Origin: Anadara kagoshimensis
Taxonomy: Eukaryota; Mollusca; Bivalvia; Arcoida; Arcidae
Length of the DNA: 64,000 bases
NCBI GenBank assembly: GCA_021292105.1
Contig: CM037860.1
Coordinates: 16,386,698-16,450,697, forward strand
Direction of reading: 5' to 3'
The first letter of the stretch is position 1; each line of letters begins with the position of its first letter. The position numbers were made by a program, and so were the translations under genes. Shown here in pieces: positions 21,395-21,530 of the stretch. Below the pieces are notes generated by a model. It was not told where the DNA came from and did not search any database. It saw only the letters and a program-made list of their open reading frames with translations.

Positions 21395-21530
21395 GTGAGT
21401 ATTTTTGGTTTTTTTCAACACCTTTGGCAAAAAAGTTTTGGTTTCATATTTCTTCCCCAAGCACTACTGATGAGGAATTTTATCCCGAAACGGCCGTCTA
21501 GTGCTGTAAAATTAATACTGTTAAGATATG
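21395..21530 (+). mobile_element. Family B repeat, 3' two thirds
   Basis: Contains AAAAAGTTTTGGTTTCATAT, the ribozyme-like centre and TGTAAAATTAATACTGTTAA. The upstream CTCCCTCATGC end is not present. Confidence 0.65.
21461..21504 (+). ncRNA. Type I hammerhead ribozyme, core intact
   Basis: Stem I GCACTA (21461-21466) pairs perfectly with TAGTGC (21499-21504). CTGATGA at 21467-21473 and GAA at 21487-21489 are the invariant core. Stem II is GGAAT-TTT-ATCCC with one A-C mismatch. Stem III is the minimal ACGGCCGT, and the cleavage triplet GTC ends at 21498. This is the full consensus of a type I hammerhead with very short stem III, as described for metazoan retrozymes and Penelope-like elements. 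Cleavage would fall between 21498 and 21499. Activity is predicted, not shown. Confidence 0.72.

Follow-up and report, generated by a model that had tools for sequence, protein, structure and literature searches.

A hammerhead retrozyme family of Anadara and a resident Penelope-like element carry matching hairpins equally far past a fixed 3′ end

Animal retrozymes give rise to abundant ribozyme circles, and the question addressed here is which enzyme brings such an element back into the genome, and at which base it starts. The question is raised by a hammerhead ribozyme motif in a 64,000-nucleotide stretch of DNA from the bivalve Anadara kagoshimensis (henceforth the window, with positions counted from its first base). 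The motif belongs to a repeat family with a 339-bp unit, a fixed 3′ end and 5′ ends that vary from copy to copy. This one genome combines that fixed 3′ end with a structured RNA element common to the family and a specific Penelope-like element, at the same offset in both, and with natural satellites made of tail and hairpin, which reduces the question to a simple binding and primer-extension test. Judging from these sequence patterns, we consider it likely that the retrozyme is mobilised by the resident Penelope-like enzyme through the shared hairpin, in a full circular-RNA cycle. If true, this would identify both the enzyme that copies animal retrozymes and the base at which it begins, and it would define a recognition signal for a poorly understood class of retroelements.

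Inspection of window positions 21460-21505 on the forward strand confirmed a complete type I hammerhead motif. Stem I (21460-21466 paired with 21499-21505, AGCACTA/TAGTGCT) encloses the core CTGATGA (21467-21473), stem II (21474-21486), GAA (21487-21489), stem III (ACGGCCGT, 21490-21497) and C17 (21498), with the cut predicted directly 3′ of C17. The initial annotation had proposed this very order, with GTC before the closing strand of stem I and cleavage after base 21498, together with one mismatch in stem II, and both were borne out by the motif check, the mismatch being a single A.C; stem I is perfect, as it had claimed, and measures 7 bp rather than 6 bp. Helix III, ACGGCCGU, comprises two pairs and a palindromic tetraloop. 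The Rfam model RF00163 (Hammerhead_1) aligns end to end at 21461-21504 with 28.1 bits (E 2.7e-5 in a 181-base search), and exact-pattern scans of viral and prokaryote collections returned no matches.

Scanning the 1.115-Gb, 36-contig genome with the core pattern, allowing up to 2 mismatches, revealed 17,189 matches (8,606 on one strand and 8,583 on the other), compared with none for the reversed-pattern control. One array (L004, C1:310271-311964) is composed of five head-to-tail units of 338-339 bp bearing near-identical hammerheads, and further runs spaced 337-368 bp occur among the matches listed. The 339-bp unit has a GC content of 33.9%, and its longest stop-to-stop frame, with the unit doubled, is only 83 aa. 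These features support the assignment of the family, by sequence, to the metazoan-type retrozymes, with a non-coding unit carrying one type I hammerhead. The search for tandem units suggested beforehand thus succeeded elsewhere in the genome, and within the 64-kb window no tandem array covers any retrozyme copy. The view of the family as a retrozyme-like, non-autonomous element lacking coding capacity is upheld by these units and by the insertion signatures described below. By contrast, the proposed unit of about 200 bp is rejected in view of the arrays: the window copies, previously termed family B, are 5′-truncated, decayed monomers of the 339-bp unit. One old retrozyme copy elsewhere (L088, C1:36233600-36234500) has an insertion of about 55 nt within hammerhead stem-loop II.

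Where does copying start, and where does it stop? We mapped 91 stretches, drawn from 60 fetched regions and 8 loci, onto the unit. The loci (L001-L068) come from the places listed for contig C1, mostly up to 12.15 Mb, and were picked by their match to the core pattern, which biases ribozyme intactness and leaves 5′ ends beyond the core under-represented; L005-L007 were left out because they overlap L004. In 79 of the 91 insertions the 3′ end lies at unit positions 321-339, while 5′ ends occupy every 30-nt bin from unit position 1 to 330, only one of them beyond 300. At the terminal junctions that were anchored on ATATG (51 of the 79), conservation drops to near background past ATATGTAATT, and the start point falls about 37 nt downstream (3′) of where the ribozyme is predicted to cut. 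Twelve of the 79 insertions are longer than one unit, and at 18 internal junctions the sequence continues into the start of the next unit, with short duplications or a 2-base loss in three cases (L015, L017, and L068). The fixed 3′ end, the scattered 5′ ends and the internal junctions together indicate reverse transcription from one internal point over a variable distance, sometimes for more than one circuit. A satellite origin, with spread through unequal exchange and by way of extrachromosomal circles but no reverse transcription, would explain why 339-bp and 108-bp tandem arrays exist. It does not predict that 67 of the 79 insertions are about one unit long or less, nor the presence of both orientations, the fixed 3′ end with its variable 5′ counterpart and some long target-site duplications, and we regard it as very unlikely.

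We also looked at the cut site itself. Exact 37-base tails number 2,228 in the genome, and 1,530 of them carry six exact bases spanning the cut. On contig C1 up to 18.5 Mb, 45 exact tails are listed, 25 of which have no adjacent exact core according to a by-eye comparison of the lists; none of the 20 tails inspected among these begins at the cut site, the rest of the 25 being, with one exception that was set aside, part of loci sampled before. Two of the 20 (L104 and L107) carry a deletion that brings unit positions 217 and 301 together, with the junction three bases away from the cut. Copying therefore crosses the cut site, meaning that the template is circular, or else multimeric and uncleaved there, and cleaved linear monomers are not supported as the template. 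As to L104 (C1:11977123) and L107 (C1:12886393), they have the same internal deletion and the same 3′ flank, and apparently represent an internally deleted copy that was duplicated along with its surroundings.

A candidate enzyme resides in the same window, which contains on its reverse strand a C-terminal piece of a Penelope-like reverse transcriptase (217..717, 166 aa, with a YIDD box) and the 3′ untranslated end of the element (21..216); other copies of this 3′ end lie at 20446-20709, 61701-61969 and 10327-10439 on the forward strand and at 50632-50955 on the reverse strand. Pfam and PDB searches using the 166-aa window fragment were uninformative. Genome-wide, the piece at 217-717 has copies with 95-97% identity in open frames (150 scored of 68,245 candidates). 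A copy on contig C10 has an open frame of 1,059 aa, about the first 40 of which are flanking DNA because this copy is cut at its 5′ end, with matches to GIY-YIG at 195-284 and to RVT_1 at 806-909 (E about 2e-4 each, with bit scores of 22.2 and 21.6 below the curated Pfam cut-offs of 22.6 and 29.6, respectively). The motifs PADK, PKLHK and LYTTIP are presumably those of Penelope-like reverse transcriptases. GIY-YIG precedes the reverse transcriptase in this frame, in place of the C-terminal GIY-YIG of Penelope/Poseidon, and by its predicted domain order the resident element is a Penelope-like element with an N-terminal GIY-YIG. It, too, is found in tandem, with a unit of 3,274 bp, and its 3′ end is sharp: GTTTTTGATT is followed by near-background conservation in the 82 matches profiled out of 104 (the other 22 were left out, most since they end earlier). 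No classical hammerhead was found in it: loci L081-L085 have no core-GAAA match, and one 3,274-bp unit contains a single sense-strand CTGANGA, at 2380, far from the ends.

What, then, do the two elements have in common? In both, the 3′ end is followed by 7 nt and then by a 53-nt hairpin of the same length (ATTACTA-CTGGG...CCCAG in the Penelope-like unit and TAAACCC-CTGAG...CTCAG in the retrozyme). Between the two hairpins, 39 of 53 positions agree, as compared with 24 of 53 for the second-best placement in the Penelope-like unit, and none of 200,000 shuffles reached 39. Folded separately, they adopt a nearly identical shape in which all 19 pairs are kept, with three double (compensatory) changes and one single change between them. 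When 16 hairpins (12 distinct) were aligned, 96.5% of cells were paired, versus 31-47% with the partner strand slid, and three pairs had both sides changed, a number matched by 1 of 500 shuffles. This alignment used 16 of 20 stretches, with L003 137, L003 482, L016 1068, the Penelope copy L081 and also L016 851 excluded because of indels or truncation. The central motif of the hairpin, in its retrozyme and Penelope versions, has 1,535 exact matches (control 0). Upstream, the similarity between the last 60 nt of the retrozyme and those of the Penelope-like element is weak, with 26 of 1000 shuffles as good.

These data bear on a more conventional explanation, namely that the repeat is an element resembling short interspersed nuclear elements (SINEs), whose linear transcript is copied from its 3′ end by an ordinary long interspersed nuclear element (LINE), with the hammerhead a passenger and the hairpin a relic. 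LINEs and SINEs, too, are marked by a sharp 3′ end, by truncation at the 5′ side and by target-site duplications, but the junction profile has neither a poly(A) nor a simple-repeat tail. Moreover, a transcript that stopped at the 3′ end would not include the hairpin, which lies beyond it, and yet the Penelope-like element has its counterpart at the same offset. The 18 internal junctions of multi-unit copies read through the 3′ junction, so the template must have extended past the start point, and on this ground we rejected the LINE/SINE explanation as improbable.

The same arrangement recurs in a third type of repeat. Tandem satellites of 108-114 bp were found at two loci (L087, C2:10908700-10910500, and L086, C1:40869000-40869900), and their unit is made up of only the last ~40 nt and the first ~69 nt of the Penelope-like element, without a hammerhead core. 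The common denominator of retrozyme, Penelope-like element and satellite is therefore the start site, the 7 nt and the hairpin. On balance we favor the interpretation that the 53-nt hairpin is the Penelope-like recognition element, and that the hammerhead retrozyme and the 108-nt satellite parasitise a Penelope-like element that itself lacks a classical hammerhead.

A purified Penelope-like enzyme has been reported to start internally, 3′ of its hammerhead, to favor ATT and to require RNA beyond the start (available text of PMC11167929). Because the order seen here (hammerhead, then a start site that ends in ATT, then the candidate recognition RNA) matches that report, we infer that the resident enzyme is the mobiliser. 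In the cycle we propose, tandem retrozyme copies would be transcribed and neighbouring hammerheads would cut the transcript, probably as pairs, as folding suggests and since helix III (ACGGCCGU), though weak by itself, is self-complementary. Religation of the monomers would then yield circles. The Penelope-like reverse transcriptase would bind the 53-nt hairpin and begin copying ~7 nt upstream of it at a putatively nicked, AT-rich target, and synthesis would proceed backwards through the cut site and round the circle, halting anywhere; such a variable stop would give copies that agree in their 3′ end and differ in their 5′ ends. Occasional multi-unit arrays could restart the cycle, and the window copies would be dead-end products of the last step. 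Cleavage, circularisation, binding and mobilisation of the retrozyme in trans are thus predicted parts of this cycle. The earlier suggestion that a resident reverse transcriptase perhaps mobilises the family is thereby strengthened and, in sequence terms, made specific: the candidate is a Penelope-like element with an N-terminal GIY-YIG and a 53-nt structured element at the same offset.

An overlapping possibility is that the same Penelope-like enzyme copies an uncleaved, multimeric linear template, in which case cleavage and circles would be unneeded and the hammerhead might, for example, trim transcripts. This would agree with the crossing of the cut site in 1,530 of the 2,228 exact tails and in all 20 inspected, and with the report that ribozyme mutants left insertion by the purified enzyme in vitro unaffected (PMC11167929, available text), which at the same time counts against a role for cleavage in the cycle proposed here. 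It would leave unexplained both the persistence of intact-core hammerheads in near-identical tandem units and the accumulation of circles of mussel retrozymes (PMC7229834, available text). Insertions copied from linear multimers and from circles should look alike, so that genomic data cannot tell the two apart; we regard the linear version as possible, but as the lesser candidate.

Several further results weigh against mobilisation through a ribozyme-driven circle and a shared hairpin, or qualify the assignment of the motif. With 28.1 bits the window copy falls short of the RF00163 gathering score of 34 bits, and whole-window Rfam scans did not report the motif at 21461-21504. The model threshold, which the initial annotation had named as a check, was reached by none of the copies tested in the window or in 16 loci. 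An array unit in L004, typical of the family, likewise scored 28.1 bits, so the cut-off is missed by the whole family and not by the window copy alone. The single-hammerhead fold (-7.8 kcal/mol) is less stable than the minimum-energy fold (-12.3 kcal/mol). Two family-typical hammerheads from the array co-fold as a double hammerhead (-34.5 kcal/mol), whereas stem II of the window copy mispairs even in a two-copy co-fold. The copy at 21460-21505 is thus a recognisable but probably weak or dead family member. As regards possible contacts between loops 1 and 2, which stabilise canonical type I hammerheads, an outer stem I helix across an internal loop is predicted for the array copy. The expectation that the core is more conserved than the flanks also failed: across 32 copies not selected by the core pattern, most of them decayed and 7 from within the window, divergence is 0.130 at the 13 core positions, compared with 0.085-0.177 in other segments. 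The lack of extra core conservation is expected of dead copies and gives function no support. Could AT-rich repeat DNA then have come to resemble a hammerhead by chance? A score under the gathering cut-off and a core conserved no better than its flanks would be compatible with this, but a descriptor scan of both strands found one full motif in the window against a mean of 0.035 per window in 200 first-order randomised windows. In addition, the full motif with its 7-bp stem I is present in near-identical tandem units and in a retrozyme context. We thus rejected chance, which seems to us scarcely credible.

Other points concern the insertions and the hairpin. The target-site duplications of metazoan retrozymes, where there are any, exceed 4 bp. 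Here only a few insertions have clear flanking direct repeats (25 bp in one and 14 bp in another), and flank matches of at least 8 occur in 12 of 79 insertions versus about 7% in a flank-swap control, some of the 12 lying inside element sequence; given this weak excess, target-site duplication is not supported as a family-wide feature. At least four pairs of sampled insertions have common flanks and hence are not independent. These pairs (L059/L060, L045/L046, L020/L022, and L023/L026), which have almost the same flanks and are separated by ~30 kb to 0.7 Mb on C1, suggest duplication of the surrounding DNA or insertion within another repeat. The alignment of hairpins sets a single Penelope-like hairpin against 15 retrozyme copies, which makes the evidence from covariation modest. 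Hairpin stability is unexceptional for the composition (z -1.10 and -1.99, with 25 of 200 and 8 of 200 shuffles folding as well), and when the whole retrozyme unit was compared with the whole Penelope-like unit, 10 of 1000 shuffles equalled or beat the hairpin alignment. The hairpin evidence derives its weight from the identical offset and structure, not from unselective alignment.

Within the window, the copy that bears the hammerhead is a 5′-truncated monomer at 21430..21533 on the forward strand (unit 235-339 of 339), with matches to other window copies beginning at 21403. The copies that had been noted near 16769, 38276, 38823, 43829, 44700, and 63939, as well as the fragments at 23858 and 41716, were all found again. 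On the forward strand these are the copy at 16608..16841 (unit 103-339, core intact, stem III decayed), the fragment at 43813..43885 (unit 249-323) and the copy at 44698..44877 (unit 127-311), both with a broken core, and the fragments at 23860..23892 (unit 284-316) and 41720..41768 (around the hammerhead). On the reverse strand lie the copies at 38247..38458 (unit 128-339, U16.1 mutated to give A.A in stem III), 38809..38921 (old, unit 222-328, 71% identity, core broken) and 63910..64000 (unit 248-339, core mutated), the last crossing the window end. A possible copy at 5884 was absent from four similarity comparisons of the window and is rejected, while a weak fragment at 4014..4073 on the forward strand (unit 274-334, E 0.006-0.009) is new. 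Seven window copies span the ribozyme; the core is intact in two, and the stem criteria are also passed by one, that at 21460-21505. The copy at 38247..38458 is flanked by a 14-bp direct repeat (TAAGTTGTTTTGAT, reverse strand), probably a target-site duplication, with its 3′ copy at 38228..38241 and its 5′ copy at 38512..38525, ~54 nt upstream of recognisable unit homology.

The upstream copy of this 14-bp repeat overlaps the end of one of the ~170-bp repeated stretches at 37107-39425, possibly duplicated exons of a neighbouring thrombospondin-type gene. The open frames of the window include thrombospondin type 1 and PAN domains, as in animals. Large tandem arrays with 43-bp and ~167-bp periods (57619-60180) and a 390-bp repeat in three tandem copies (31693-32870) have no match to the retrozyme unit.

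How does this system compare with those already described? By domain order, the resident element can be likened to N-terminal GIY-YIG Penelope-like elements (the Naiad/Chlamys clade), in which GIY-YIG likewise comes before the reverse transcriptase, and to our knowledge no hairpin at the unit start of such elements has been described. The PAc element of Anolis (Frangieh et al., 2024, PMC11167929, available text) is similar in its internal start downstream of a hammerhead, its tandem units, its preference for ATT and its need for RNA past the start. PAc encodes its own enzyme with a C-terminal GIY-YIG, however, whereas the Anadara hammerhead is part of a 339-nt unit that codes for no protein and the enzyme is encoded by an element in which no classical hammerhead was found. 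The minimal hammerheads of Penelope-like elements and Terminons are also type I and may act as dimers; they usually have no non-conserved helix III nucleotides (PMC7761336, available text), in contrast to helix III here, ACGGCCGU. Metazoan retrozymes and the idea of Penelope-like help are already published, going by the available text of PMC7229834 and PMC7761336, and a title-level survey of the open-licence literature revealed no report of a common hairpin, a mapped retrozyme start site or tail-hairpin satellites. Similar systems are also the metazoan retrozymes lacking long terminal repeats (Cervera and de la Pena, 2020, PMC7229834, available text), among them a mussel family of ~350-390 bp, which resemble the Anadara family in their type I hammerhead with short helix III, their non-coding, AT-rich unit of 150-450 bp, their tandem copies and the Penelope-like elements alongside; here, too, we find a type I hammerhead, a unit of 150-450 bp with less than 50% GC and tandem copies. 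The available text of that study names Penelope-like elements as candidate helpers, on the basis of common features and of their co-occurrence with retrozymes, and mentions no such hairpin. Relative to the mussel, the sampled Anadara copies are mostly dispersed, 5′-truncated monomers, and the 17,189 core matches compare with ~5,000 type I hammerheads there, counted by different methods (PMC7229834, available text). What sets the Anadara family apart from the metazoan retrozymes is its defined 3′ end together with a hairpin common to a specific Penelope-like element.
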